Positions 125-24,100 of a stretch of 64,000 bases of DNA are shown one piece after another. A model generated the notes under the pieces. The model had not been told where the DNA came from. It did not search any database and was given only the letters and a program-made list of their open reading frames with translations. The position numbers and the translations under genes were made by a program. Position 1 is the stretch's first letter; each line of letters opens with the position of its first letter. Source of the DNA: Membranipora membranacea (lineage: Eukaryota; Bryozoa; Gymnolaemata; Cheilostomatida; Membraniporidae); NCBI GenBank assembly GCA_914767715.1, contig OU612069.1, positions 1,736,001 to 1,800,000 on the forward strand, in the 5' to 3' direction.

Positions 125-3100
125 CTTTAAAAAGAAGAATGGATTCAGTTACGTTACAGTTAGATGAATATCGCATGAATGTTATTCTGCTGCTGATCTT
201 TTATGAATGAGAGGACCATTTGAAAAGGATCAATATATACATAGTGTACAATGTATGTGGTTTCATTGAACTTTTTCTTTGTCTTTAGACACCCTTATAA
301 AATCATATCATTATAATTTTTTCTAATCCCTTTTGAACTGATGAGTGGTGAGCTTTATGTAAGCATACTCAACATATTTTAGAAATTAACAGGAGACCGT
401 TGGGGGTACTTGGATGAGTGTAGAGAAATATAGCATAAGAGGCAATGAATATCTGATTTGGCCTCACGTATTACAGGTCTGTACAATTTTGTGCTGTAAA
501 AGCTTACAACCTTGACTGGATCAACCTTTTTTAGAGTAAAACAAAGTGCTAGGAATATTTGTGTGTTTTGCAGTCAGTGCCTAGCTGTAGTCAAGGAACC
601 AACCTGGTTGGAGGAACGCACCGACCCATATGGCCTCAGGTTTGAAAGATGTTAGCAGATAATGTATTGGCAGAAATTTCAGTTATTTTGAAGCGCATAC
701 GCCATACAAGTTGCTATTGATCATGTTGAGTCTCGAAATATCAAATCATTCTGATCGAATACCTGCTTCTGTGGAGTATGGATCATTTTTCCTTATCTTA
801 CCGATATTTGTGGAGTTGCATAAATCCACTTGTAGTTAGTGAATTGGCAATGATTAGACACGTGTTTAGTAAAATCGAAGAACAAATAAAACTGCAAGGT
901 TCGCATTTTCTAACTAATGTAAACAAAGAAATAACCAACCAAATCACATCACTTTAAAAATGCTTATTTCTTCGGTATTTAATACAATTTTTAGCCGATC
1001 TACTTCTATCCATTGATGAATAAACTATTGCAAAAAATTGATTGTCTAATTATGGGTGTATATTCAGTCAGTCTATATGCCTGCTAATTATTACACAACT
1101 GTGAGTTATTATTATTCATGCTTTTCTGCCGATTTCTATTTCCTATAAGATACGACCAATATGATATAACATCTTTCTCTTTTTTTTACTTTGTGTATGA
1201 TATACTCCTTTTTAGTCATTGTTTCACAAATAGAGAAGTACTAGCACTCTGTTTTAACACATTCTTCAGGTTTATATTTTTTGATAGATATAGATCCTCT
1301 AGATTGGTGAGTGAAATCATGCTGTAAAGTGGGTTTCCATATTAAATACCACCCTCAGAAAAAGGAAATCTGCCGCTGCCCTTGCAGTTGTGGTTTACTG
1401 TGGTTCAATATTAATGAATGTTTCTATTGAGAGGAAAGATATGCATAATATCATGAAGTTTGATAGGCGATCTAGTTTCCAATTAAGGATATATGATGCA
1501 ACACTTGTCCTCAATAAACTTGAACGAATATTGACCTAGAGTAAGGAGGGCTGGTTATATTTCATCCATATATATCTGTTCCAGGTCCTTGTTTTCATCT
1601 ATCACATTCATTTCCCTAGGTGATAAAAAAGAAGCTCACCCACCTCCCAGATAGCTGAGTAAGACCACAGTGTGACATCTTTAGACTCTTCAGACTCCTT
1701 AGCTCTCCAATCCAATCAGGTAGTGTCGCCAATTTGTTATTATCAGATATATTTAGTTCCTCTAGACAGTAAAGTTGTCCTATGCTGTAATGGTAATATC
1801 TGATGAAATAAGAAAGAACCTCAAATGTTCCTCTCAAAGTGTGCTTTCTTTCTTAAACAATGAGAACAGGATCGAAATCTGCGTAAATATTATTACATTG
1901 TTAGTCACTCAATTCAGAAGAGGAAGAAGATGGTTCTAACTATGAATTGTTCTAGTTATAAAAGCGGCCATTTGCGGGCATTTTCAACGGATGTGGTGCG
2001 TATTTCAGAAAATCCAGAAGCAGAAATTCTTTTCAACATGAAGAAACATTCTATTTGTTGTATTGCGCTATGAAAGTGGTAATGGAAATAGAAATCTGAT
2101 GGCTGAGAGAACAGTTGAATTGGATTGGATTGAATCGCATAAGCAGGCAGGGTTGACAGCTTTGTTTATGGGTTCTAAATCCAGATCATGATCACTCCCT
2201 TTGTCTGCTTTGTCCAAAACAAACAACTGAACAAGGAGTTACATTCTTTCTTGATGAGAAGACGCAACTTCGAATCATGAACCCTCTTTATGTGGAGTTA
2301 CTTTCTTCCTTGGTCAGAGAAGACAACTCCGAATAACAGTCACAATCTCGCATAAACATGGTGTAGAAACCATTGGCTGAGCTGGGACCACACTCAGGAG
2401 TCTGAATTGACAGGAATTTCGCATTAACAGGATTAGAATTAACTAGCTTACACTGTATTGATATGAATAGGTTATATAGTTAACCAACCTCCAAGGTATC
2501 TCAGTGAGGTCACATCCAGACACATTTAGACTCTTCAGACTCTTAAGCTCCCCAATCCTATCGGGTAGTGTCGCCAATTTGTTATTATCAGATATATTCA
2601 GTTCCTCTAGACGGGTAAGTAGTCTTAAGCTGTAATGTAAATATCTGATGAAATAACATAACCTCAAATGTTCCTCTCAAAGTGTGCTTTCTTTTATAAA
2701 CACTGAGAACAGGATCGCAATCTGAGTAACTATAATTATAGATATGAATAGGTGATAACAGTTAACAAACCTCTCAGATAGCTGAGTAAGACCGCAGTGT
2801 GACACGTCTAACTTCTTCAGACTCGCCAGGTCCCCAATGTCATCAGATAATGTCACCAGGTTGTTATTCCCGGATATATTCAGTTCCTCTAGACAGGTAA
2901 GTAGTCCTATCCTGTAATGTAAGTATCTGATGAAATAACATAACCTCAAATGTTCCTCTCAAAGTGTGCTTTCTTTTATAAACACTGAGAACAGGATCAC
3001 AGTCTGAGTAATTATAATTATAGATATGAATAGGTGATAAAAGTTAACCAACCTCCAAGGTATCTCAGTGAGGTCACATCCAGACACATTTAGACTCTTC

Positions 3101-6100
3101 AGACTCTTAAGCTCCCCAATCCTATCGGGTAGTGTCGCCAATTTGTTATTATCGGATATATTCAGTTCCACTAGACAGGTAAGTGCTGCTATGCTGTAAT
3201 GGTAATATCTGATGAAATATCAAAACCTCAAATGTTCCTCTCAAAGTGTGCTTTCTTTTATAAACACTGAGAACAGGATCGCAATCTGAGTTACTATAAT
3301 TATAGATATGAATGGGTGATAAAAGTTAACAAACCTCTCAGGTAGCTGAGTAAGACCGCAGTGTGACACGTCTAACTTCTTCAGACTCGCCAGGTCCCCA
3401 ATCGCATCAGGTAATGTCACCAGGTTGTTATTCCCGGATAAATTCAGTTCCTCTAGACGGGTAAGTGGTGCTATGCTGTAATGGTAATATCTGATGAAAT
3501 ATCAAAACCTCAAATGTTCCTCTCAAAGTGTGCTTTCTTTTATAAACACTGAGAACAGGATCACAGTCTGAGTAATTATAATTATAGATATGAATAGGTG
3601 ATAAAAGTTAACCAACCTCCAAGGTATCTCAGTGAGGTCACATCCCAACACATTTAGACTCTTCAGACTCTTAAGCTCCCCAATCCAATCAGGTAATGTC
3701 ACCAGGTTGTTATTCCCGGATAAATTCAGTTCCTCTAGACGGGTAAGTGGTGCTATGCTGTAATGGTAATATCTGATGAAATATCAAAACCTCAAATGTT
3801 CCTCTCAAAGTGTGCTTTCTTTTATAAACACTGAGAACAGGATCACAGTCTGAGTAATTATAATTATAGATATGAATAGGTGATAAAAGTTAACCAACCT
3901 CCAAGGTATCTCAGTGAGGTCACATCCCAACACATTTAGACTCTTCAGACTCTTAAGCTCCCCAATCGCATCAGGTAATGTCACCAGGTTGTTATTCCCG
4001 GATATATTCAGTTCCACTAGACAGGTAAGTGCTGCTATGCTGTAATGGTAATATCTGATGAAATATCAAAACCTCAAATGTTCCTCTCAAAGTGTGCTTT
4101 CTTTTATAAACACTGAGAACAGGATCACAGTCAGAGTAATTATAATTATAGATATGAATAGGTGATAAAAGTTAACCAACCTCCAAGGTATCTCAGTGAG
4201 GTCACATCCCAACACATTTAGACTCTTCAGACTCTTAAGCTCCCCAATCCAATCAGGTAATGTCACCAGGTTGTTATTCCCAGATAAATTCAGTTCCTCT
4301 AGACGGGTAAGTTGTCTTATGCTGTAATGTAAATATCTGATGAAATATCAAAACCTCGAATGTTCCTCTCAAAGTGTGCTTTCTTTTATAAACACTGAGA
4401 ACAGGATCACAGTCTGAGTAATTATAATTATAGATATGAATAGGTGATAAAAGTTAACCAACCTCCAAGGTATCTCAGTGAGGTCACATCCCAACACATT
4501 TAGACTCTTCAGACTCTTAAGCTCCCCAATCGCATCAGGTAATGTCACCAGGTTGTTATTCCCGGATAAATTCAGTTCCTCTAGACGGGTAAGTGGTGCT
4601 ATGCTGTAATGGTAATATCTGATGAAATATCAAAACCTCAAATGTTCCTCTCAAAGTGTGCTTTCTTTTATAAACACTGAGAACAGGATCACAGTCTGAG
4701 TAATTATAATTATAGATATGAATAGGTGATAAAAGTTAACCAACCTCCAAGGTATCTCAGTGAGGTCACATCCAGACACATTTAGACTCTTCAGACTCTT
4801 AAGCTCCCCAATCCTATCGGGTAGTGTCGCCAATTTGTTATTATCAGATATATTCAGTTCCACTAGACAGGTAAGTGCTGCTATGCTGTAATGGTAATAT
4901 CTGATGAAATATCAAAACCTCAAATGTTCCTCTCAAAGTGTGCTTTCTTTTATAAACACTGAGAACAGGATCACAGTCAGAGTAATTATAATTATAGATA
5001 TGAATAGGTGATAAAAGTTAACCAACCTCCAAGGTATCTCAGTGAGGTCACATCCCAACACATTTAGACTCTTCAGACTCTTAAGCTCCCCAATCCAATC
5101 AGGTAATGTCACCAGGTTGTTATTCCCAGATAAATTCAGTTCCTCTAGACGGGTAAGTTGTCTTATGCTGTAATGTAAATATCTGATGAAATATCAAAAC
5201 CTCAAATGTTCCTCTCAAAGTGTGCTTTCTTTTATAAACACTGAGAACAGGATCACAGTCTGAGTAATTATAATTATAGATATGAATAGGTGATAAAAGT
5301 TAACCAACCTCCAAGGTATCTCAGTGAGGTCACATCCCAACACATTTAGACTCTTCAGACTCTTAAGCTCCCCAATCGCATCAGGTAATGTCACCAGGTT
5401 GTTATTCCCGGATAAATTCAGTTCCTCTAGACGGGTAAGTGGTGCTATGCTGTAATGGTAATATCTGATGAAATATCAAAACCTCAAATGTTCCTCTCAA
5501 AGTGTGCTTTCTTTTATAAACACTGAGAACAGGATCACAGTCTGAGTAATTATAATTATAGATATGAATAGGTGATAAAAGTTAACCAACCTCCAAGGTA
5601 TCTCAGTGAGGTCACATCCAGACACATTTAGACTCTTCAGACTCTTAAGCTCCCCAATCCTATCGGGTAGTGTCGCCAATTTGTTATTATCGGATATATT
5701 CAGTTCCACTAGACAGGTAAGTGCTGCTATGCTGTAATGGTAATATCTGATGAAATATCAAAACCTCAAATGTTCCTCTCAAACTGCGCTTTCTTTTATA
5801 AACACTGAGAACAGGATCACAGTCTGAGTAATTATAATTATAGATATGAATAGGTGATAAAAGTTAACCAACCTCCAAGGTATCTCAGTGAGGTCACATC
5901 CCAACACATTTAGACTCTTCAGACTCTTAAGCTCCCCAATCCAATCAGGTAATGTCATCAGGTTGTTATTCCCGGATAAATTCAGTTCCTCTAGACGGGT
6001 AAGTGGTGCTATGCTGTAATGGTAATATCTGATGAAATATCAAAACCTCAAATGTTCCTCTCAAACTGCGCTTTCTTTTATAAACACTGAGAACAGGATC

Positions 6101-9100
6101 ACAGTCTGAGTAATTATAATTATAGATATGAATAGGTGATAAAAGTTAACCAACCTCCAAGGTATCTCAGTGAGGTCACATCCCAACACATTTAGACTCT
6201 TCAGACTCTTAAGCTCCCCAATCCAATCAGGTAATGTCACCAGGTTGTTATTCCCGGATAAATTCAGTTCCTCTAGACGGGTAAGTGGTGCTATGCTGTA
6301 ATGGTAATATCTGATGAAATATCAAAACCTCAAATGTTCCTCTCAAACTGCGCTTTCTTTTATAAACACTGAGAACAGGATCACAGTCTGAGTAATTATA
6401 ATTATAGATATGAATAGGTGATAAAAGTTAACCAACCTCCAAGGTATCTCAGTGAGGTCACATCCAGACACATTTAGACTCTTCAGACTCTTAAGCTCCC
6501 CAATCCTATCGGGTAGTGTCGCCAATTTGTTATTATCGGATATATTCAGTTCCACTAGACAGGTAAGTGCTGCTATGCTGTAATGGTAATATCTGATGAA
6601 ATATCAAAACCTCAAATGTTCCTCTCAAACTGCGCTTTCTTTTATAAACACTGAGAACAGGATCACAGTCTGAGTAATTATAATTATAGATATGAATAGG
6701 TGATAAAAGTTAACCAACCTCCAAGGTATCTCAGTGAGGTCACATCCAGACACATTTAGACTCTTCAGACTCTTAAGCTCCCCAATCCTATCGGGTAGTG
6801 TCGCCAATTTGTTATTCCCGGATATATTCAGTTCCTCTAGACGGGTAAGTGGTGCTATGCTGTAATGGTAATATCTGATGAAATATCAAAACCTCAAATG
6901 TTCCTCTCAAAGTGTGCTTTCTTTTATAAACACTGAGAACAGGATCACAGTCAGAGTAATTATAATTATAGATATGAATAGGTGATAAAAGTTAACCAAC
7001 CTCCAAGGTATCTCAGTGAGGTCACATCCAGACACATTTAGACTCTTCAGACTCTTAAGCTCCCCAATCCTATCAGGTAATGTCACCAGGTTGTTATTCC
7101 CGGATAAATTCAGTTCCTCTAGACGGGTAAGTGGTGCTATGCTGTAATGGTAATATCTGATGAAATATCAAAACCTCAAATGTTCCTCTCAAAGTGTGCT
7201 TTCTTTTATAAACACTGAGAACAGGATCACAGTCTGAGTAATTATAATTATAGATATGAATAGGTGATAAAAGTTAACCAACCTCCAAGGTATCTCAGTG
7301 AGGTCACATCCAGACACATTTAGACTCTTCAGACTCTTAAGCTCCCCAATCCTATCAGGTAATGTCACCAGGTTGTTATTCCCGGATAAATTCAGTTCCT
7401 CTAGACGGGTAAGTGGTGCTATGCTGTAATGGTAATATCTGATGAAATATCAAAACCTCAAATGTTCCTCTCAAAGTGTGCTTTCTTTTATGAACACTGA
7501 GAACAGGATCACAGTCTGAGTAATTATAATTATAGATATGAATAGGTGATAAAAGTTAACCAACCTCCAAGGTATCTCAGTGAGGTCACATCCAGACACA
7601 TTTAGACTCTTCAGACTCTTAAGCTCCCCAATCCTATCGGGTAGTGTCGCCAATTTGTTATTATCGGATATATTCAGTTCCACTAGACAGGTAAGTGCTG
7701 CTATGCTGTAATGGTAATATCTGATGAAATATCAAAACCTCAAATGTTCCTCTCAAAGTGTGCTTTCTTTTATAAACACTGAGAACAGGATCACAGTCTG
7801 AGTAATTATAATTATAGATATGAATAGGTGATAAAAGTTAACCAACCTCCAAGGTATCTCAGTGAGGTCACATCCCAACACATTTAGACTCTTCAGACTC
7901 TTAAGCTCCCCAATCCTATCGGGTAGTGTCGCCAATTTGTTATTATCAGATATATTCAGTTCCACTAGACAGGTAAGTGCTGCTATGCTGTAATGGTAAT
8001 ATCTGATGAAATATCAAAACCTCAAATGTTCCTCTCAAAGTGTGCTTTCTTTTATAAACACTGAGAACAGGATCACAGTCTGAGTAATTATAATTATAGA
8101 TATGAATAGGTGATAAAAGTTAACCAACCTCCAAGGTATCTCAGTGAGGTCACATCCAGACACATTTAGACTCTTCAGACTCTTAAGCTCCCCAATCCTA
8201 TCGGGTAGTGTCGCCAATTTGTTATTATCGGATATATTCAGTTCCTCTAGACAGGTAAGTAGTCCTATCCTGTAATGTAAGTATCTGATGAAATATCAAA
8301 ACCTCGAATGTTCCTCTCAAACTGCGCTTTCTTTTATAAACACTGAGAACAGGATCGCAATCTAAGTAATTATAATTATTGATATGAATAGGTGATAAAA
8401 GTTAACAAACCCCCAAGGTAGCTGAGTAAGACCGCAGTGTGACACGTCTAACTTCTTCAGACTCGCCAAGCACCTAATGTCATCAGGTAATGTTACCAGG
8501 TTGTTATTCCCAGATAAATTCAGTTCCTCTAGACGGGTAAGTTGTCTTATGCTGTAATGTAAATATCTGATGAAATAACATAACCTCAAATGTTCCTCTC
8601 AAAGTGTGCTTTCTTTTATAAACACTGAAAACAGGATTGAAATCTGAGTAATTATAATTATAGATATGAATAGGTGATAAAAGTTAACAAACCCCCAAGG
8701 TAGCTGAGTAAGACCGCAGTGTGACACGTCTAACTTCTTCAGACTCGCCAAGCACCTAATGTCATCAGGTAATGTTACCAGGTTGTTATTCCCAGATAAA
8801 TTCAGTTCCTCTAGACGGGTAAGTTGTCTTATGCTGTAATGTAAATATCTGATGAAATAACATAACCTCAAATGTTCCTCTCAAAGTGTGCTTTCTTTTA
8901 TAAACACTGAAAACAGGATTGAAATCTGAGTAATTATAATTATAGATATGAATAGGTGATAAAAGTTAACAAACCCCCAAGGTAGCTGAGTAAGACCGCA
9001 GTGTGACACGTCTAACTTCTTCAGACTCGCCAAGCACCTAATGTCATCAGGTAATGTTACCAGGTTGTTATTCCCAGATAAATTCAGTTCCTCTAGACAG

Positions 9101-12100
9101 GTAAGTAGTCTTATGCTGTAATGTAAATATCTGATGAAATAACATAACCTCAAATGTTCCTCTCAAAGTGTGCTTTCTTTTATAAACACTGAGAACAGGA
9201 TCACAGTCTGAGTAATTATAATTATAGATATGAATAGGTGATAAAAGTTAACAAACCCCCAAGGTAGCTGAGTAAGACCGCAGTGTGACACGTCTAACTT
9301 CTTCAGACTCGACAAGCACCTAATGTCATCAGGTAATGTTACCAGGTTGTTATTCCCAGATAAATTCAGTTCCTCTAGACAGGTAAGTAGTCTTATGCTG
9401 TAACATGGATATACAAATTAATCACATTTAAGCAGAACTCAGCTAACGCAGAGAAAAGAAAAGCGTACATATCAAAGGCCTATGGGGGATGAGGTGTGGG
9501 TGATAACACAAATCAATGAGCAATCCATTTTATGGTCATGATAGTTTTAATATTAAAGCGACAGTCCTACTAGGCCATGTTTGGTATGGTTTTAAAGATC
9601 TCAGGCTGAAAAGTCATTAGGCCATATGAAATAAAACAGCCTGTGAACCTAGTTGCAGTAAAAATGCTGCAAAGTCTGAAAATTGGGATCATAGTGGATC
9701 ATAGTGATTTATTGCCTCCCCTGACCACTATGATCCACTATGATCCTTGCTAAAATAATTAAAAAAAACTAAAATGCTATTATCCACAATTTTAATTTTT
9801 TATAATTTTTTTTGCTTTATGAACTCACAATATTCAAGTTACTGGGGTTATATATCAACTTTTCTAATAGGACTGTCACTTTAAAAAACTGTGTGGTAAA
9901 TAACTCATTTATAGACTGCTACAAACTGATTGATACGTGGAAAATCAGTTCTGGTATTGCTATCATATAACCGAGGTCACCATGTCGGAATTCTACAAAT
10001 CAAATTTATTCCTCTATTTACAATGCTGGACAACAACAGACGTGTTCTGTTTTCTGACCATCGCCATGAACTAGAGGCTATTCCAATTGTGACTTATTTC
10101 ATCAAATGAGAGTCAGACATGTATCCCTATGAGTTCTTTTAATGTCTGGGCATGCTTGAAATTTGCAAAACACTCAAAGTTACTATGATGTAATAAATTA
10201 TTCATTTGAGGTCAAACACAGCTGGTTACACAAAACTTTTAACTGTCACCTCTCAAACTGATCTGTATCTTGTGTCTTGTTTAACCAAAGAGCTTTAAGA
10301 AAAGGTGCCATCTCTGCTATAAATGGTGGAATGTCCCCATCAATAGCCATATGTGTTACGGTAAGACCTGCTGTAGCTGACAATAACTCTTCAGCTGTGA
10401 ACATCCTCAGATTAAATAAGAGCGGGATACCATCAATATCTGGTTCACCTGTATGTCGGTACCAGACACGATACCCTGTTAACAAAAACATAGTATTATA
10501 AGCTGCTTTGCTCAGTTAATGTGACATAACACATTTGACCGATGTTATAGTAGTAGTAGTTTTAATCATAGACCTACTAATAATAAACCTAGACAGGTGA
10601 CCTGCGCAGCTGAAGTGAGGCCTATAATAACCGGAATTCCCCAATGACATAACGTGACTGTGTTGTGCACAGTGAGCGCTGCAATGAATGGTTTTACTAT
10701 ATTATGAGCGTGACTGATTATTAGCTATAATGTCATTTTTCTCATAGAGATATCGAAGACTGATGCCTACAAGTTAATTTTATCTGGAGGGTGATGTAAC
10801 AAGCAACGTCATAGTCTCTGAATTTTTTCTCTAGCTCAGATATTGAATGAGATACGACCATTAGAAGCCAGCAATATCTGTAAACAGTGATACATTATTT
10901 AAGCATTGCAGCAAGAAAATAGCATTTTTCTCACAGATTCATCGAGAAATTATGTAAGCAAGTTAATTTTATGTGAAATGTGATGGACCAAGCCAGCTGT
11001 AAGTCTTTGAATTTTGTATCTGACTCAACTATTGAGTGAGTTACGTCCATTAGAAGTCGGAAATATCATGACTCAATGACTGACTGTTGCGTGAAAATAT
11101 TTGTTTATGCATCCTGAAAGACACAGGCCTTACCATGTGGGTTTGCTGCAATCAGTTGATGACTCAAAGCATGGCTAGCTAAAAATAGCTATAACCTTGG
11201 TCAACCTTGCACATGCTGTGTCCATCTGTATTGTAGCTCAAGGGGTTTGTGACACGTCCCCATAAGTAGCATGATCTTGAAAGTTATCGCTGTAGGACTA
11301 GCTTAATTTTTTATATACTCTTCATTGGTGGGCTTTGCCTTATTGAGACTAAACTGTCCAGTTGCTCAGTGGATTTCTTGCACACCTGACATCGCATCAA
11401 CATTGCAATCGGTAAGATTCATAACTATCCTTGTGTTTTAATTTGTTTCAGTTCCATGGTATGGTATGCTCTACTTTTCAATACTGTCAGGTAAAGGTGG
11501 CAATGACAGGCGCGACATTATGCTCTTTTTTCACTTTCGCAAAGTAGGAGAAAGATTGATGTCATGTTTATGAGTTTCTCAATTTTACAGGCCAGTAAAA
11601 GTAGTCGACACTGCTGCTGTGCTTTTGGCTGTAGCAACACACCAATTAAGGATGCAAGCCTCACCTTCCACCGTTTTCCGCCTCAGCAGGAACGCCGTGA
11701 CAAATGGATCGAAGCAGTGTCCCATAAAGATTGGAAACCGAGCACAAACTCTGTTCTATGCAGCAAGCATTTTGGAAAGGGTGCATACAGAGTGCCTCCT
11801 AACCTTCCAGGGAGACGGGCTATGCTCTACCCGAATGCAGTGCCTACTATGTTTCCGGAGTATTCTGCGTATCTACGACCCCCACAACCCAAAAAACGTA
11901 GAGTGTTAAGCAGAGACGCTGCAAAACCCCTCCCCTCCGAGTTCCAGCGCAGAAACTAGTGAGTATTTACAAACTGTGCAAACAGATACAGTTGCTGCTG
12001 AAGCAGCAGAACCTGTAGTTCCAGATATACCCTTAATACTGAGTAGCGATGCGCCGCAGGAGGGGCGTGGGCAAAAGAAGACAACTCCTGAAGTTCCGAA

Positions 12101-15100
12101 ACAAAGGAGGCGAATAAAGACATTGCAGCAACGCATACGCAGATTTGAGAAGGAGAGAGTACAACGTAACATGATAGGTATCTTAGACATGTTCAGACTG
12201 TAGAGATTCACTTATAGATACAGACACTAACGACCCGAATGATGATACTACACTGGTGTCCGTCAAGAATAGGGGCGGGCTTGTTGCACTTTCTCCCAAC
12301 ACAAAGAAGCTCTTCGTAGTGAGCGAGCAACTGCTCCGCAATTATATAACATGCAATGGTGTTGACACAAACATACTTATCAAAACCCGAAACAGAGTCC
12401 TCAACCATAGTCTTTTAGGAAATTTGCATGGATTTATGAAATGTGCTGTGCATTCCACTTCAACACTCAGATCCCTTATCCACCGATACATAATGATACG
12501 AGTTCATTACGAAACCCAGAAGATAACATCAGAGAAAAATGAAAACATCCGATCTAAACTCAATAGATTGGTAATATTTCAGCACCAGTAACTGGTCTAT
12601 CTATGCATATCATGATATGAAGTACGCAACTCGTACTTCTAGTGGTACTTCTGGATGTTCAGCTGCATAGTAAGAATAAGACTTCTCATTTATTATTACA
12701 ACCAATACAAGACACATTTTTATCTTCACTGTTGCTCCTTGCTAAAATGTATCAACGTTTACAGATATTGCCGACTTCTAATGGTTGTATCTCATTCAAT
12801 ATTTAAGCTAGAGAAAATATTCAGAGACAACGGCGTTGCTTGGTATATCAACTTTCGGATAAAATTAACTTGTAGGCATCGGTCTACGATATCTCTATGA
12901 GAAAAATGACATTATAGCTAATAATCAGTCATGCTCATATAGTAAAACCATTCATTGCAGCATGCACTGTGCACAGCACAGAAACGTTGTGTCGTTGGGG
13001 CATTCCAGTTATTATAGGCCTCACTGCTCACTGTATAAGCTCTATATCTGTCACTTGTCTAGGTTTATTATTAGTAGGTCTATGGCTTTAATACATCATT
13101 GACCTGGCATCCAAGTTTTTTTACCCAGTATTGGTACGAACCTCTATCTAGCTATATTATAACATTTAGGTACCTAGCTTTGAAAACATGCTTAAACATA
13201 CTTCTGTTGTTGGTCCGAAGCGTTGGCTGTTTGATGCTAAAATAGTGATCTGTATCCGTATCTGTTTGATTGCTGGAATGTGGTATTGGTGCTGTCAGGT
13301 GTGTTGTATGTGATGCCTCTTGTAGAACAGGATATCTCTTATCAGCTCCAACTGTAAATAATTGATGTATCGCAAGGAATTAACCTCTTGATGTGTACAT
13401 TATTTCGTGACAATTTGCATCTGAGTTGTGCTTCCGAGAAGTCATATCTAGGGGGATACATGATACACCGGTGCATTTAGCAAAAAATTCTTCAAATAAT
13501 AACCATGAGTCCAACACTGTTTGGCTTCTTTTCGAGTAGGACTCTTTACATAGTTACATTACATTATCTGTTACCCACAACGGTCAACCCACTACTGCCA
13601 TACGCACAAGCAAAACCAGATGCTTGCTTGCGAGATACTTGCTTTTATCACATCATGTTGTCTTTGTTGCAATCCTCCAGGAACCTGCTACTAACATGGA
13701 ATTCCCTTGGAAGTTGAATGTTTATTTTACCACAATAACTATCAATTGTAGGTACGATATTTTGGTCAAGTTATGTTGCTTCGTTTCATGTAACAATCTC
13801 CATACCATTAGTCTTGATATCATCATTCGTCTTGAATTTCGTATGTATTTATGATGTGACTATTGTTTCATTTTCTTTTAAAGCACACCAAGATCTTTGG
13901 GTTACTTTTTATAGCCATGTTGAAGAATAACGATTCAAGATACGCCAGTTCAAACTGCAGCTAGGTCCGGGAATACCCAATGGTTGTAGTAGAAATTCTC
14001 AAGACAACCATATAGATAATGCAAACATTGTGCGTTAAAATAGTTGGCACGCTCTGAGGCTATTTCTCAAGTATTTCGCAAATGTAGTTTGTGGCCCTTT
14101 CATTTTGAGCTACAGTTCTATTGATTTCACTCAATTTATATTTCGCATGTAACGCTACGTTCTACAATCATTGTTCATGCTCATACTCCTCCCCACAAGA
14201 GAATTATGCAGCAACAAGCCAGCCATCGCGCATCATGATGGTCACTTGCACCTTGACAATAGAGCAACAAGGTTTGCCTGTGAGATGTGAATTACTACAT
14301 ATTTTGCCTCATCCTCAAGTGCAGAGTTCATTTATTCATAGTACATACCATTTTTAAGGCACTTCCTAAACCCGTATTCATAGCTATCCGTCCATTCCTT
14401 ATCATCATCAATTTGCATTGACACTGAAAATAAACCAGATATTCTATACTATTCTTTCAAAGGTGAAACATCACTAACAGGCACCAATCAATTATTATCA
14501 TGGAGGTTTCCAACCATTGGGGTTTGTAAAGTAAACAAACTGAAATATGCTAGCGATCAGTGTCTATCCACAGAACACAACATGTCAAAAACCGGCCTGT
14601 TAGCCCATAAATAAGTCTCAGTAGGGTTCAGAAAACCCTTTGGCTCATATAATTGAGGATATTATTATGGTGTGAACAAAACTCACCCATGAAATAGATT
14701 TTTTCTAAGAACCAACTTCTAATGTTGAATGGAAACACCCCAAGGTTATGCCAATCGGGGAGTTCCTATTCCATAATTTTTTACAATGAATCCAATAGTC
14801 TAATCAGAAAGAATGCAGTACATTTAGCTTACAACCAAGATAAGGATGAGTAGAGGGGAAGCAACTGCAAATACAGGCAGATGTCAAATCTAACACTGGT
14901 GATGATACTGTCGCTTTTATATAAAAAGCTATCTTGAAACTGCCTCAATGAGGGTGGGATGTAGGGGATCAAAGGGAAAGAATTTAAAAACATACTGTCA
15001 TTGTACACCAATTTGGCAATACTAGCACCAATGTCTCTCTGTTTCTCGTCACTGAGTTGAAGTGCAATAGTAATCTCCTTCTTGAGCGAAATTCTGTATG

Positions 15101-18100
15101 CAGATTTTACATATTGACAGAGACTCAGGACCGCACGACGGCATGACTCTACCCTCGTTACATCCTCACCTACAAATTCAAATCGCATACCATTTCACAC
15201 TATTCTGATACAAAGGAACTGTTTTCCGCTCTTATCTCAAGCTTCAAGATTTTCTAAGCGCAATTGTAAGGATTGTTGTAACCTGATAGTGCATAACCCC
15301 CTTTTGTGTCAGAAACTTTTGGATATTCGGATTCGATTCTATAAAAACCTGAGGTTTGGATAATTGTTGAGTCTAATTGATCATAGAGCCGGAAGAAAAC
15401 AAGAGCCAGGATCAACAGTGGATTTGCTAGGAAGACCTTTCTCACAAGACACAGACTAGATTGTCAAAGTGTGAAGATGGTGGACCGAAAAGGTATAGAG
15501 TGGACAATGGAACAATATGTACACATTACTGGAGGCGCAAGAAACAGCTCATTATCATAAACAGCAGGACACCCTATCAACAGACTTACTGCTGAAAGGG
15601 TGTTGTAAAAATGTCCTAGTGTAGTACATCTCGATGAGTAGCTCTGTGATGTAAACTTTTCCAAGCAACTCCTCAGGTAGTATCATTTTCCTGGCTACGA
15701 GCTCTGCATAGTATCTGGAAATAAATGCAAAGGGATCAGAATAAAAGAAAACACTCTACATGTTTTAGTTTCTCAACACCATAATCTTCTTCGGCAGGAC
15801 CACAGCAATATAGTCAGCAGCTAGTTATGCAATAATTTCACATTGAGAAAATTCAGAGCACTTCCGGGTATAACTTATGTGGAGTGTTAGAAATTGTCCT
15901 CCCTTCTCATCTATGAGGTATCGAGGCCAAGTGCTGTGCCAACCCAATAAGCTACCACGTCAAAATACATTGAATTACTATTCTTTTCTACATAAGTTCA
16001 AAATGAATATAGTTCCATTGTCAGGAGACTACAATAGTAGATAATCTTCATTTATTAAGTAATACAGCTCTCTGAAGTAGATAGAAGTATATGGAGCTGG
16101 TACAGCACTAGACCTCACAGATGAGAAGGGAAGACAACTAACACTATACATAATTTTTTACCCTGAACTGCTCTGAATTTTCTGAGTGTGAAAATATTGC
16201 ATTACTACTGTAGAACTAGCTGCCAGTGCTATTGCAGGGGTCCTTCTGAAGTCTTTAAGTTAAGAGCTCCAGCATACCCTGCAAGGTTTTGCACACTTTT
16301 GCAATGCATTTTTGTTTTAGTCATAACAGATCAAAGCAGGGTACACCGCACAGCTTTCGCTGAGCGTTGGATCGAAATTATGCACACAAAACCAATTACC
16401 CATCAGTCAGGTGTTCATTCTCCAGGGATTGCTTTGAGCTACAGGTCTCTTCAGAAATTGCCATGTGACGTAGGTCAGCATCAGTCAAACGTTGAAATCG
16501 ACAGAGCTCACTGATGACCTTTTTGTAATCTCTATTGTCCAACAGGGGGTGCTTTGCAGATTTAGTGAACAACCTTTCTGCTGGCGTTTCATCTAAATCA
16601 CCGAATGTGCTGGAAATGGTTGAAAAAAATTTCAAATTGAATCTTATGTATAAAAAACTTAACTATACTAGATGATATTTTTTCTTGAGTGCCTACAGTA
16701 TACAATTATAATTCATTAATATCATCTTTCTCAGAAGATTTAGTTGGGAGATGAGAAAGTGAATAAAATTGCCAGGATGACCTGAGACGCTTTCTAGGGT
16801 TAAAAGAATTTATAATGAACTATATATTGATGAAATGTATATAATATATTACAGATATATATATACATAATTATTTAATATAATCTCACGATTTATCCCT
16901 ATATAACAAAAATTCATGATCAAGGACGGCTTCAGACCAGGGTATTGTTACTGTGGCATAACTGATTGATATAAATTGCGAGAAATTTGGGTGTGGTTGA
17001 GATATTGTTGAAATACAAATGTTGTCCCATTTACATCAATTGCCAAGTTATACTTTTTTCTCTATATATTAACAAAATTTTGACAATTGTGTCTAAGTTC
17101 TATGATGACATAGAATGTCGAGAGCTAAGCAGTACGACAAATATAATAACAGCTAAATTTACCTTAAAATAACTAAGGAGGGGAAGGTGCAGGGACACAG
17201 TGACTTAGTTTACATGAAAACACTAGACTTGCATAAGCTCTACTTACGTTTGAAGCATTTTGTACCCTTTGCCAGTCACTGTTAAAGAATACACGTTGAG
17301 GGCCTCATCCAGCAGCCCACTAGATTTGTGAGAATGCTCTCTGTGTGCCTGATGATAAGACGCCAGGGAGGTCAATAGGCTTGAATACAAAAGCTGCAAC
17401 ACATAAAACCCATGTTGCATTTGAATAAAATATGGCACTGAGGTGAGCTGTAAATACATCCCTACACTAAAATTCTTTATAAAGGAGTGAACTTGGAAGA
17501 TGCAACCTCAAAGGATCACAGAAATGACAATATATCTGTATATACTGTAGTAATGTATATACTGTAGTAATGGTAGATCAAGTTTAGTCTGATGAGGTTG
17601 TCTCAGGAGTTGTCCCTCACTTATTTGAATGATTATGAATGTCTAATTCATGATACAAAAGGAGCAGCTCAAATTTTTTGCTTACTTTGAGCTACTGAAA
17701 ATATGAGAGAAACGAAATGCAAAAATAGTCTTAGGCATATTATGCTTACATACATTATGGGACTATAATTTACAATAAATTCAATTTTACATATAGAATA
17801 CTACATATATATTGAACATACCCTATAGGAGTTTAATTTAGCTAGAGTTTAATTTCGCTATCTGGACCTGGTACTAAATTTCGCTAGTAGGCTTACTAGC
17901 GAAAATTAAATAAAATTTCCAAGCTGGGATTCGAACCCAGGGCATAATCCTCCATCTGGTTGCAAGGCAGACACTACCTTGCATGCGTAGGTAGGGTGTA
18001 TTCCTGTATAATTGTACATTGTTTATGAAACTAGCATTGCTTAGGAAGTAGTTTCCGCTATCATAAAATTTTGCTACTTAGGCAAAACCGCGAAAAGCGA

Positions 18101-21100
18101 ATCCTAAATGCCGCGAAAACTAAACTCCTATAGGGTATTAATAAACTAGAGACGAAGAATATGATCTACATTGAATTTAAGTTATTATACATATCTCTGC
18201 TGAATCGAATATAACAAAACACCATATACAACGACTACATTTAGCTCTAGTCTACTTCTACGTGATAAGTTCTCAGTTATGCTGAAAGCGCAAAATAACA
18301 AGCTGTTGCCAAGCCCAGAGAATATGGCGTATCAATTTAGTTTCTTGAAGTCTGCCGACATTAAATGGTATTGCAATAGGGAATTACTTCTACCTGCTAT
18401 TTATCAATTTCAAAATTTCCCACACCTGAACTGACACTACTGTCAACTCCACAAATGCCAGTCAAGAAGCATGTTAAAAACTGTTATTCATTATGAAATG
18501 TCAACTCATTATTTACATGTGTGCACTTTGAGACTTTTACCTTCAGTTCAATTGGTAAACAAGAGCAAGAGATTAAACTTGCTTGATGATTAGCACTCAC
18601 ATTTCTCTATGCCATTTGACAAAGCAGCAGCATCTACCATTGGCCTTATCATTACAGATGAAATAATGCCAGAATATCAATAAGCATATCTCACTAGAAT
18701 GGATTTTTAACGTAATATAATCGAGATATCCTTGCTGCCAGTTAGTGTGCTTTTTAGATACTAAGGTCTCAATAGTACCTCAGCGTTTTAGGTGGATTGT
18801 TCGACCCCAACTACCTCGATGGGTTTCTATTTCATCTCTTAACAAACAGGAGATACACAACAGTTTTTAGTACTTAGCCCACTCACTAGTATGACAGGTG
18901 TGTTCTCGTGGTTTACTGTACCGTCAGTTATGAGCTCCTGTATGTTGTTGGACAAAGTCTCCAAGTGTCTATACAAATAACTTGGAGCATTATGGGTACT
19001 TTGATGTCTCTCATACTTTGGAATGATTCTTGTCAGTGCAACCAGACACATTCTAAAATTAAAACACAAAATGATGAGGCTGCCCATGTCGGGATGGGGT
19101 ATCATTGTGAAATTACTTAATCTAATGGGATAATATTTACTGCATAGTAAAGAGTAACCGGGTTTAAAACAATACCTCATTGCTCAATAGAAGATTGCAT
19201 CTTTTGCATGGTGAAAATGATTTGATCTGAACGGGATTATTCAGTGAGTAATTTCAAGATACATTTTAAAAGCTGCTAAGACCCAGCTGAATTAGAATCA
19301 GACAGAGCAGTTTTCTGTCTCTTTTTATGCACTATGTAACTATTACTGCTATGTCTTTGAGCGTCGCCGAAACTGAAACAGACACAAATGAAAATGGCTA
19401 CATGAAACGTTGACGATGAGAAATCTGATAGCCTGGAGAGACGCTCGGCTATTATAGAATTAGAACTGAGAAGAATGGATGTGGAGATAGCTGCTCTTCA
19501 AGAAACACGTCTGCAAGATAATGGTCAATGAGGATGGAGAAGGCCAAACTCTTTCCTGGAAGGGTACAAACATCCTGAAAGAAGGATAAAGGGCATTGGA
19601 TTTGCTATCACGAATGAGATGGTGAAGAAGTTGGACCAACTACCAGTGGGTATGAATGACGAACTGATGAGTCTGCAACTAAATCTATGAAAAAACAACC
19701 GCAGAAGCAACAATATTCTGAGCTTACGCTCCTACACTCCAAGCCGATCAACATGAGCAGGAAGAGTTCTACCATGGAAAAGATGCTATTCTATTGCTGC
19801 TAACCAAAATATGCTGAGCGCAATCTGACAATTACCAACACACGCTTCAGGCAGAAAGATAGAAGGAAGAAATCTTGGAGACACCCAAGATCTGGTCACT
19901 GGCATCTCATTGACTTTATTAAAGTGAAGGTGACGCTCATGACGTTGTAATTGTAATTGTATTGTATTACATTCTGCCATACTCAATATACATGTATACG
20001 AGATGATATCGAATGTACGTAAGTGTGGGTTAAAAAACTGGTAGCTGCAAAAATAAAAATACATAACTAAAAGGATATACTGCAGTTAGGTACGGTTAAG
20101 TACGATACACAAGACCATTATCATGATAGGTCATAAAATAGTTAAAAAAGCTGTTAGACCTCTTTGTGGTTCTGCATCGTTTTGGACGGAATACTTGTTT
20201 GGCTCGAGAGGAAGTTCTGTTACTGTTAAAACTTAGCGACTATAAAGTGGATGGGATTCATCCTTTAAAATCTTTGTGAAGTGACTGTATGAGCTATCAA
20301 AGAGAAAATTGCAAAGATAGGGAATGCGTAACATTCCTAGCAGATCTTCATAGTCATGATCAGGCAGTATAATCTTTGAGGCTGAGCGCTGGAGACGCTG
20401 GAGACGCTGGAGACGCTCTAATCTTTCACAGTTTGTGTCACCAATGAGGGAAAACCATGCAGGCGAGGCATAACAGATAATGGGACAGATGTTGCTAAGA
20501 TAAAAAGTCCTCAAGCCATCGCTGTCAAGTCCTATGGATTTCAATTTACGCATTAAAAACAATCGTGTGTTACATTTTGTTACTAATGTATCGATATGCA
20601 TATTAAAAGAGAGTTTATCATCAATAAAAATTCCCAAGAATTTGGTGAAAGCATTAGGTTGCATCAATGCATCATCAACAACAACATCATAACTATAGTT
20701 GTGCTTATAATTTAGGCAGGTGTTCATCAACTCTGACATCTCAGCGTTTAGCAGCATATTATTTTCATCAGCCCATTTTTGGGTAGATAATATAGCTCTA
20801 GCAATAGCAGACGACTCGAAGTTGGAAGTAACTGTGGTGTAGAATGTTACATCGTCTGCATAATTAATGTGTTCAAAGCCCGGTACTGCAAGGCCATTTG
20901 AATAGATGAGCCACAGTATTGGCCCAGCTTAGTACCTTGGGGTGCTCCGACATTACTCTCTGTGTAGCTAGATTTCTGGTAACCATATTTGACACACTGT
21001 ACCCTGTCTTTGAGGAAGCTGGATACCAGAGCTGTTATTTTAGTGTTGAATTGATATTTGTGCATCTTGTCTATGAGGATAGCTGGCTGTAACCTGTCAA

Positions 21101-24100
21101 AGGCCTTAGAAAAGTCGAATGCAGCACTTTGAATTAATTTAGAGTTGGGTTGTCTAGTTCAGATGAGTAATCATCTAAAAGTTTTATCAATGCATCCACT
21201 GTGCCTTTATTAGGCTGGTATGCGAACTGCGAGGGCTCTATGATCTCCTCTAATTTACTTCTCATTTTTCCAATAATAGCGGCTTCGTACACCTTACCAA
21301 GATGGAAAAGAAGTTGATACTAACCAATAGTCCTTGAACTTAGTAGGGCAGGACACTTTCGGGAGGGGGCTAATCTGAGATTTTTTCCATTTCATTGGAA
21401 ATTCATTTGAGCGTGGCATACAGTTTATGATGTCAGTGAGGGGAATGCACATATCCTCACGACCTTCAAGGGAGACCCAGGTTGGAAAGTCCTCTTCAGT
21501 TGTAGCTTTAGTTGGAGCTAGTCTGTTCAATAAAAGTTTTACTTCCCCGATACTTAATGTGTCAAGAGCGTGAGATGGTACATCATCATATTCAGGAGTT
21601 GTCTTTTCAAGCACAGCGTTCCCACCTACCGTAGAGTAATAATCAATGAGTTTATCACAGAATGTTGAAGCTGTCATTGGGTTACCTTCTATTGTTGGTA
21701 TAGTTTCCAAAGCTGTCTTGTTTGGTTGTGTGATCGACTTTAGTGTGGCCCACCATTCTTTGGTGTTTTGATTAGTATTTAGTTTTGGTTTGTAATAAAT
21801 GCCCTCTTGCTAGCTCTTATTCTCCTTTACACCAGAGCCCTCAATACTTTCCATGATTTGCATTTCATTTTATGAGCTTTTTCACGTGCTCTGATTAGCT
21901 TTTCTATACCAGGCGTTATCCAGTGTGGACGATCACGTCTGAGTTTGCGAACTTTATATGGGCAATCTGTATCCAGTGCTCTGGTGATAATGGAATGAAG
22001 TGCCTCAACTTTCTGAGCCTCACCTGTGCAGTAGAGTCATCAGATGACGGAGGGACGGATCAACAAATCATTTCGCCTGTATTGAACATCCAACTCAAGC
22101 CAAAGCGACAAACATCAATGAAGAAAAATCCAAAAAAATACAATGTGAAGAAAAGTTCCAAACAGAAGTTCCTGCGAGTCTCAAAGAAATAATGAAAACA
22201 ATATTGACAAAACCTGGAATGACCTAAAGGGAGCCATTACACAAACATGCGGGAATGAACTTGGAAAGCTGAAAGGGCATAATGAGGACTGGTTTGGCGA
22301 CAAATGACATTGGGAATCAAGAGCTAATAGCTGCAAAGCAGGTGTCCTTCAGAAAGGATTACAGTGATAATCAGCAAAAAGAATAACTACCATTAAGTGA
22401 GATCCAAATCACAGCTGAAGATAAGAAAACTGCAAAATGACTGGTGGATAGGCAAATCAGAAGAGCTGAAAGGAGAGGCTATTGTGGATGAAGATGTCAC
22501 AGATGTTCTTCCACAGAATAAGATACTGAATCATCTAGCTGCCCTCAAAGAGGTGTTTAAGAACAGAGGAGACAATCTCACACAGGCGCTATTTGAACTA
22601 TTCATCCGAATATGGGAGAGCAAAGTCATACTTGCAGATCTCCGGGATGCCAACAGTGTGACAGTATTAAAGAAAAGGAATAAATCAGAGTGTGGGGACT
22701 ACAGTGGAATGTCTCTGTCCATTGCAGGAAATATACTGGCACGGTTAGTCAGCTATCGGCTCAGCAAACTAACAGAAGTGTGTCTGCCGGAGAGTCAAAG
22801 TGGTTTTATGCTGAGTCATGGAACAGTAGACATGCTATTTGCTGCTAGACAGATACAAGAAAAATTTTGAGAGCAGAACAGACACCTATTTATGACTTTC
22901 ATTGACTTAACCAAGGCATTTGACACTGTACATCGATCTACACTATGGAAAATACTGCAGAAGATTGGATATCCCAAAAAGCTTATCGACATTGTGGGTA
23001 ACATCCATGATAAAATGACGGCCTATATGCTAGTGAGTGGTGGGGAGTTCGGAGTGAAAACTGGGGTGATGCAAGGATATTCTTGGCTGCTGTTCTCCAT
23101 CTAGTCAGACAGAACATGCCAGATGGAATAAAATTTGATTCTGTTTAGTGATTCGTTGACAAATAAAATATCCGCTGCCCTAAGGCCAAGACAAAAATAT
23201 GTCAAGCAACAATCAGTGAGCTGCAGCCGAGTGACAATGACATGGTTGCCGACAGCGCAGAAAACATCCATCATGTTATGGATCCTTTTAACAATGAATA
23301 CACTGCACTAGAACTAAAGCTGAACTAAACTAACACAAGCTCGGTATCAACCTCGACCATGTGCCTGCCACCAAGAACAGCCTGAGAATATCACAGCAGA
23401 AACTAGAAAATGTGGAGATTCAATTACCTTCGAAGCAGTCTGTCAGCAAAAGCTAATATTGATGCAGATATATCTCGTAGATTCCAGGCCGCAGGTACGG
23501 CGACTGGAAAACTACTGACACTTGTATTCAACATTAAAGACATCAACATACAAACAGAAATGAAAGTCTATACAACCTACACTGCTATAATATACATATT
23601 ATGGCTCAGAAGCATTGGTGACCTACGGTCATAATATGAAAGCACTAGAGAAGTTCCACAAACGCAGTGTCAGAATACTAGGTGTCAAGTTTCAGGATTG
23701 TGAAGCAACAAACAGCGGGTTTGAGCGGACCAGAACAAAATGTTGAGGCAACAATTATCAAGAACCAGCTTCAGTGGTTAGGCCATGTTGTTCGCTTGTC
23801 CTCTAACCCAAGCATATGATGTACACTGAGCTTCAAACTGGTAAGCGCACCACGTGTGGACAGAGGAAAAGAAACGAAGACAAGCTGAATTGTAGCTTGA
23901 AGCAGTGCTGCATTGTTACAAGGAGCTGGGAGAGTCTGGCAAGAGACAGGAAACCTGGCGTGATACAATACACCATGGTTTCCGACTCTTTGAAAACAAC
24001 GGAATACGGAAAGGAGTAAAAAGAGAGCAGCCCGTAAGGCTAGCCAAGGATAATGCACTCCTACAAATGATCAGGGCTACAACTGCTCTTATTGTGACGA

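Follow-up and report, generated by a model that had tools for sequence, protein, structure and literature searches.

We analyzed a 64,000-nucleotide stretch of the genome of the bryozoan Membranipora membranacea (GenBank assembly GCA_914767715.1, contig OU612069.1, positions 1,736,001 to 1,800,000), here called the window, whose minus strand carries a tandem array of 25 leucine-rich repeat (LRR) exons. The array is probably the LRR part of one member of a large animal LRR-ROCO family, with a STAND-like front, a caspase tail and LRRs that are modular in the germline. The window corresponds to C5:1736001-1800000 in our contig numbering; coordinate 0 is C5:1736000, and negative window coordinates lie to the left of the window. 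The genome searched comprised 339.3 Mb in 18 contigs, and the evidence is the DNA of one assembly.

A tandem array of frame-neutral LRR exons

Tandem Repeats Finder described positions 2456-9403 of the window as a single tandem array with a period of 282, 24.6 copies and 94% matches. The exons of the array, and the one that follows it, are:

2489..9397, minus strand: LRR exon array of 25 exons of 141 bp, the first at 9257-9397 and then one each 282 bp to 2489-2629, with 24 introns
1644-1784, minus strand: 26th LRR exon, diverged, 141 bp, phase 2, donor GTGGGT, in the same phase chain as the array

Every one of the 25 array exons is open, bordered by AG and GT, exactly 141 bp long and in phase 2 at both ends, and all 24 introns inside the array are also 141 bp long. 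Read on the minus strand, TTACAG stands directly before each exon and GTTGGT or GTTTGT directly after it (25/25). A first-pass annotation of this DNA had placed 25 tandem exons of 141 bp, phase 2 on both sides, at 2489-9397, and its coordinates, count, length and phase all proved exact. It had also viewed the exons as frame-neutral modules, which agrees with the phases found: with phase 2 on both sides of all 25 exons, any subset keeps the frame. Its description of the 282-bp unit as one complete LRR exon was correct in that each unit holds a 141-bp exon with its own intron, but an exon encodes two LRRs. The Pfam family LRR_4 ('two copies') matched two joined units at 4.1e-16, and one exon (46 whole codons and one split codon) corresponds to two LRRs, which gives about 50 LRRs in the array.

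The LRR region extends past the array, through exon 1644-1784 into the start of the next exon, which begins at 124 and runs leftward past the window edge, with the phase unchanged. Twenty-five open 141-bp exons with conserved borders are far from chance, although they are not 25 independent events, since the units are copies of one another.

Gene model and domain order

The joined gene model contains 42 exons with 41 phase-consistent junctions and encodes 2886 residues with no stops. Its domain order is STAND-like P-loop NTPase, helical region, 26 LRR exons, Roc-COR GTPase and caspase. Upstream of the array, ten candidate minus-strand exons are bounded by canonical splice sites and link up in phase with LRR exon 1, and one further upstream exon was added. 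Outside the LRR exons given above, the model consists of:

26617-26776, minus strand: exon completing Walker A (...VIILTG + RSGVGKT), first of the model, not the true 5' end
25642-26234, minus strand: P-loop NTPase exon, STAND-like, with GRSGVGKTE, FLIFDDAE, WKIVVTTRN and GMPLAL; Pfam NB-ARC E 0.04, below the cut-off
25038-25262, minus strand: exon after the P-loop domain, from splice sites and phase; paralogue at 40%
24563-24738, minus strand: exon after the P-loop domain, winged-helix-like by position only; no Pfam match for its frame
18887-19052, minus strand: helical-region exon, from splice sites and phase; paralogues at 44% and 35%
17248-17447, minus strand: helical-region exon, from splice sites and phase; paralogue at C5:1703149 (38%)
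16400-16609, minus strand: helical-region exon, from splice sites and phase; paralogue at C5:1717141 (42%)
15590-15714, minus strand: helical-region exon, from splice sites and phase
14996-15169, minus strand: helical-region exon, from splice sites and phase
14349-14423, minus strand: helical-region exon with canonical sites; the 3' border was shifted by one base onto a GTATGT donor, and the phase also fits
10250-10475, minus strand: exon preceding the array, in phase into LRR exon 1; homologues before the arrays L032 and L034 (described below), 45% and 56% over 62 residues
1..124 and on leftward to C5:1734230, minus strand: 1895-bp exon with the last LRR, Roc and COR; Pfam Roc and COR-A, PDB matches
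C5:1733081-1733214, minus strand: short linker exon without known domain, donor GTAGTA, from phase
C5:1732741-1732902, 1730985-1731282 and 1730582-1730755, minus strand: caspase exons, Peptidase_C14

In the frames scanned between the P-loop domain and the LRRs, no match to a Pfam family was found. A TPR domain was considered for the helical region; it had no significant Pfam match (the frame of 17248-17447 lay outside the scan) and is not claimed.

Roc-COR GTPase and caspase

On the 1895-bp exon, Pfam Roc matched at 2e-6, above the cut-off, and COR-A matched the same exon at 9.7e-5, which is below the cut-off and in the right place. PDB matches on Roc ranged from 1.6e-6 to 2.3e-4 and included 4wnr, 3dpu and, by name, LRRK1. 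We take 4wnr and 3dpu to be Roco structures, although the depositors' names on the entries differ. Roc is followed by COR, as in ROCO proteins, and it is preceded by LRRs, as in the first ROCO group; here these are encoded by the 26 LRR exons and the beginning of the Roc exon, all joined in unbroken phase.

Peptidase_C14 matched one caspase exon at 1.5e-12 and another at 0.0023. Against the PDB, the caspase part gave 141 sequences (best 1.2e-11), and its motifs SSHGHEG and QACARG align with caspases. From this alignment the protein is predicted to have the catalytic His and Cys of the caspases (Peptidase_C14).

A genome search with the Roc-COR exon produced 268 candidates, 70 of which were scored. 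All 70 are open, with E <= 5.5e-167 and 45-100% identity, and they are located on contigs C1, C3, C5 and C10. A same-strand caspase exon lies 1.07-3.33 kb downstream (median 1405 bp) of 57 of the 70, whereas a simple estimate puts the chance of such a pairing at about 0.002 per Roc-COR exon. For this count, 65 of 150 caspase matches were used, chosen near the Roc-COR loci on the four contigs, so that 57 paired Roc-COR exons is a lower bound. In a C10 paralogue, Roc-COR (54% identity) and caspase exons (70%) follow the array in unchanged order.

More clusters of caspase exons resembling this gene's occur at C9:0.2-2.5 Mb, C11:0.6-2.8 Mb and C8:18-24.3 Mb, where many matches have an internal stop. 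C8, C9 and C11 carry no Roc-COR exon among the 70 that were scored (of 268 candidates).

The STAND-like front

The front half of the model contains GRSGVGKTE, FLIFDDAE, KIVVTTRN and GMPLAL, which we presume to be motifs typical of STAND NTPases. The GVGK, FD and VTT positions are common to four P-loop copies in the region, this gene's included. A Pfam NB-ARC search of the genome gave no matches, with only 3 candidates past the first look. Because Pfam scores stay below their cut-offs and no NLR was found with a profile against the PDB, we name the front STAND-like and use neither NACHT nor NB-ARC for it. For the P-loop frame there is one 100% match, of source code 'lgn', which we took to be an assembly of public reads; it is independent support for the P-loop exon, not for the array.

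An animal NLR is expected to end C-terminally in its LRRs. In this gene Roc-COR and caspase come after the LRRs, and it is therefore a ROCO. Of the initial label 'NLR gene', what remains is the set of NLR-like P-loop motifs in the front half, below every curated cut-off, while the part behind the LRRs speaks against it.

Three further STAND-like copies were seen nearby. A second P-loop exon at 34886-35623 of the window (plus strand; Pfam NACHT E 0.0013, below the cut-off) is probably part of a paralogous gene on the opposite strand, and two more paralogues lie to the left of the window, L010 (about -28335, minus strand) and L030 (-22434 to about -9000, plus strand). In L030, only the C-terminal part of COR was found, together with a caspase-like frame (by eye) and, by tblastn, no LRR exon. 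L030 was considered as an array-free control and set aside as not clean, being a STAND-like paralogue with only the C-terminal COR found.

Other LRR exon arrays in the genome

A genome search with the LRR exon yielded 1846 candidates, and 150 of these were scored. The 125 matches outside the window's gene form 54 clusters on five contigs, and 28 clusters contain at least 2 matches. Matches were most often spaced at 274 bp (14 cases), followed by 293 bp (5 cases). Four loci were read, L031 from DNA matches and the others for their dense regular matches; with this choice of L032, L033 and L034 the loci are not a random sample, and decayed arrays may be missed.

L031, on C1: 5 dispersed exons (lower bound) of 141 bp, phase 2, 1.3-1.8 kb apart
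L032, on C10: 18 exons, 17 of them in register at 274 bp
L033, on C3: at least 16 exons with a period of about 293, then a Roc-COR exon at 42%
L034, on C10: 24 exons with a period of 274

On C3 and C1 the sequence read was truncated, so the true numbers of exons there may exceed 16 and 5. Together with the window array, these loci contain 88 exons (25 + 18 + 16 + 24 + 5), all open. The length is 141 bp in 86 of them, and the remaining two, 159 and 135 bp in L034, are in frame. The 88 do not include a decayed LRR stretch of L032, nor the LRR part at the beginning of the L033 Roc exon. Introns are less uniform in L033 and L034, deviating from the common length by 1, 2, 3 or 12 bp, and L034 has one GC donor and two units with an altered last exon base. 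Several members of one large Roc-COR family carry tandem LRR exons.

Turnover of the array

The window array is a mosaic of 17 distinct exon sequences among 25 and 12 distinct introns among 24. The longest stretch repeated without a mismatch measures 487 bp and recurs three units away, and two units of the array are identical across 282 bp. Among pairs of biallelic informative sites, 565 of 1653 are incompatible with one tree, and the minimum number of recombination intervals inside the 282-bp unit is 9, although repeated mutation could explain some of the incompatibility. The 487-bp repeat at a 3-unit shift and the at least 9 recombination intervals are footprints of exchange between units and of duplication of whole units, in support of the unequal crossing-over by whole exons that had been proposed from the first reading of the sequence. 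The accompanying proposal that LRR number can change by exons is supported by the paralogous arrays, with 25 exons in the window against 24 and 18 on C10.

With the two odd-length L034 exons left out, exon/intron divergence in the four arrays was.135/.036,.143/.034,.104/.063 and.107/.065 (window array first). The higher divergence of exons is also present at synonymous sites (pS, the synonymous differences, was.166 in the window-array exons), so that amino-acid selection is not its only cause. It seems that old exon variants persist and are reshuffled by recombination, whereas the introns become homogenized. The ratio of nonsynonymous to synonymous differences (pN/pS) in the same order was.75, 1.09,.64 and 1.34.

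On the basis of LRR geometry we assigned ten positions to what is presumably the concave (predicted binding) face. Variability at these positions was above that of the rest in three of the four arrays (P.028, <.0001 and.0044), and the combined P over the four was.0005, or.017 against non-structural positions only; these values come from permutation on related copies, not from likelihood tests. In the C3 array pN/pS was 1.38 on the concave face and.26 elsewhere. On the other hand, it was lower on the concave face in L034 (.98 vs 1.40) and in the window array (.50 vs.86).

The closest relative of an exon was in its own array for 82 of 86 exons, and the two C10 arrays are mutually as close (.138) as L032 is internally (.140). 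Judged from these sequence patterns, germline exon turnover and the modular diversification that it would bring about appear well supported in outline.

Splice sites of the array

Position +3 is T in all 25 donors of the array and A or G in the model's remaining 17. In a scoring of donor strength, the array donors reached 2.6-5.1 and 12 of the 17 others 4.2-8.9, with overlap between the two groups. Acceptors were 57% pyrimidine in the array and 68% in 11 others. Weaker donors in the array would favour exon skipping. As a rule for the whole family, weak donors were rejected: the C10 and C3 arrays mostly have the ordinary donors GTAAGT and GTGGGT, and the weakness is a property of the window array only. 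Conservation of the introns through RNA structure (docking/selector pairs) was also rejected, since the consensus intron had no better fold than 100 shuffles (z = 0.10).

Interpretation and alternatives

The protein would contain a STAND-like NTPase, a helical region, a long solenoid of some 54 LRRs and a Roc-COR GTPase, and it would end in a caspase. Since the LRR exons are identical in length and phase, gain, loss and recombination of modules keeps the frame. Unequal crossing-over and short germline gene conversion may add, remove and recombine the two-LRR modules, and the result would be many receptors differing in LRR number and surface. The solenoid presumably binds ligand inside the cell, the NTPase and Roc-COR may act as switches or dimerisers, and the caspase would trigger cell death or inflammation. 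Further isoforms may arise if exons are optionally skipped. We infer a possible immune function from the domains.

Several observations count against a modular LRR-ROCO-caspase gene with a STAND-like front. The 42-exon model is partial, as the first exons and the last caspase exons are not placed. For the end of 14349-14423, the linker and the caspase exons, borders were selected visually from several possible sites with regard to the phase, and the phase agreement at these places therefore adds no independent support. No Pfam model reached its cut-off in the P-loop front (NB-ARC E 0.04 for this gene), the STAND identity rests on motifs, and a profile of the four P-loop copies, this gene's included, found no NLR in the PDB. 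Thirteen of the 70 Roc-COR exons (9 on C3, 3 on C5 and 1 on C1) have no listed caspase nearby. A hand count gave stops in 53 of the 150 caspase matches scored; this includes 10 of the 57 paired ones, all among the first 41 Roc-COR exons, with none flagged in the other 16. The window array itself has a pN/pS of 0.75 and no excess of variability on the concave face (P.31, permutation), and we do not claim concave-face diversification for it.

The near-perfect 282-bp period and the recent multi-unit duplications are also what a neutral, satellite-like expansion would leave, with the exons as passengers only. We consider this very improbable, given that the exons are open and in frame in 25/25 cases here and 88/88 at five loci, that the two odd lengths differ by multiples of three, and that divergence is higher in exons than in introns, a pattern expected neither of a neutral array nor of purifying selection by itself. 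The number of units could also be a product of the assembly, through collapse or expansion of reads, as assemblies can miscount repeats of which two units are identical over 282 bp. With 17 distinct exons and 12 distinct introns in a mosaic and similar arrays at three other loci, a pure artefact is extremely unlikely, even if the exact count may be off. Another reading makes the caspase and the Roc-COR/LRR part two neighbouring genes on the same strand; it is suggested by the short linker exon without known domain, whose donor GTAGTA is not strong and whose end was picked by eye. The phases are nevertheless consistent across the COR-linker-caspase junctions, the order recurs 1.07-3.33 kb apart in 57 of 70 copies and at C10, and the amphioxus protein P0052 (see below) is a single predicted LRR-Roc-COR-caspase protein, which makes two genes very unlikely.

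A more serious competitor places the main source of diversity in splicing, with cells skipping different subsets of the 25 exons so that one gene yields many receptors. Any exon subset preserves the frame, T at +3 sets the 25 array donors apart from all 17 others, donor scores and acceptor pyrimidines are lower in the array, and alternatively spliced LRR exons have been described in excerpts on brown-algal ROCO genes (PMC11378527) and NLRP3 (PMC6642158). However, the donor scores of array and other exons overlap, the C10 and C3 arrays mostly have GTAAGT and GTGGGT donors, and the intron has no RNA structure beyond that of shuffles (z = 0.10). We therefore regard splicing as the main source as a possibility worth keeping, on balance rather unlikely.

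Other features in the window

A minisatellite of 16 copies of a 53-bp unit occupies 58918-59765 (minus strand); its unit consists of the last codons of a coiled-coil-like coding exon and a GTATGT donor. CAGCAG followed by GTATGTGG occurs there in 15 exact copies, and the exon end seems to bear a row of duplicate donors. Repeats of 23 bp are found at 60486-60599 (5.0 copies) and 60963-61499 (23.3 copies). Two features lie within introns of the ROCO gene: frames resembling pieces of a non-LTR (long terminal repeat) reverse transcriptase, by eye, at 20233-23100 on both strands, and a THAP-domain frame at 11507-11956 (plus strand; Pfam PF05485, 1.5e-18), possibly a DNA transposon.

Comparison with known systems

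A search for relatives (7993 candidates scored, 50 matches) returned 29 open reading frames at 41-69% identity on short contigs. Next came the bryozoan protein P0030 (29%) and another protein (31%), besides remote MFHAS1-like and prokaryotic ones. Searching with a long query added the amphioxus protein P0052 and one mollusc protein. P0052 (Branchiostoma belcheri, 'MFHAS1 homolog', 1210 residues) resembles the present gene in combining LRR, Roc-COR and caspase in one protein. It differs in having no STAND-like family among its Pfam matches, and its identity is 31% over 26% of the query.

We know of no vertebrate NLR with Roc-COR or with a long tandem array of near-identical exons. The LRR domain of vertebrate NLRs is likewise exon-modular, e.g., in NLRP3, for which an excerpt of the cited paper reports skipping of one 171-bp LRR exon (PMC6642158). 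Prokaryotic LRR-AP-GTPase-COR-effector systems share the order of LRR, Roc and COR followed by an effector, which can be a caspase; they are bacterial, and the passage describing them includes no STAND front (PMC8195603). For the sponge Dysidea avara, COR and caspase are listed among the domains of NLR architectures and LRR number varies by gene, whereas exon arrays are not reported in the main text as excerpted (PMC12909245). Trichoplax has at least 17 ROCO genes according to a passage of PMC4104024. Among the top full-text matches, subscription papers aside, none reported animal ROCO genes with tandem LRR-exon arrays, or a ROCO family this large. The ciliate Tetrahymena has tandem arrays of constant-length LRR exons that, as in the window array, are in phase 2, with 1-51 exons in T. 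thermophila and ectopic recombination; these exons are 90 bp long, and the excerpt mentions no Roc-COR or caspase (PMC6564038).

The closest precedent is found in the ROCO genes of brown algae. Brown-algal LRR-ROCO genes were reportedly treated by Zambounis et al. in 2012. Excerpts of a later study describe 72-bp phase-2 LRR exons, exon shuffling, splicing variants, selected sites on the concave face and 9-47 genes per species (Teng et al., 2024, PMC11378527). As far as these excerpts go, in both systems LRRs precede Roc-COR, phase-2 LRR exons of one fixed length stand in tandem, exons are shuffled and the genes are numerous, and variability of the concave face is common to the algal genes and three of the four arrays studied here, the window's being the exception. 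The algal exon of 72 bp encodes one LRR and the bryozoan exon of 141 bp two, so the bryozoan gene is alike in working and not a member. The 9-47 algal genes per species compare with at least 70 scored Roc-COR exons here, which are exons and not confirmed genes. The algal architecture, as excerpted, is a simple LRR-ROC-COR with splicing variants seen, whereas the bryozoan gene is known from genomic DNA alone.

In brown algae, ROCO genes with tandem, frame-neutral LRR exons have been described as candidate immune receptors. An animal that shares this anatomy and has related Roc-COR exons by the tens or more would be a second case for 'exon arrays as a diversity generator'. To the brown-algal type of ROCO anatomy the gene studied adds an NLR-like front and a caspase tail, and the sensor, two NTP switches and the executioner would share one chain. 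More speculatively, and with a low probability in our judgment, dozens of LRR-ROCO-caspase genes, many of them with an array of interchangeable LRR exons, may form an anticipatory intracellular repertoire, in which germline exchange together with an exon choice that varies from cell to cell, through splicing or somatic recombination, would produce individual-specific receptors wired to caspases. If true, such a repertoire would be the animal counterpart, separately reached, of the proposal made for brown algae.

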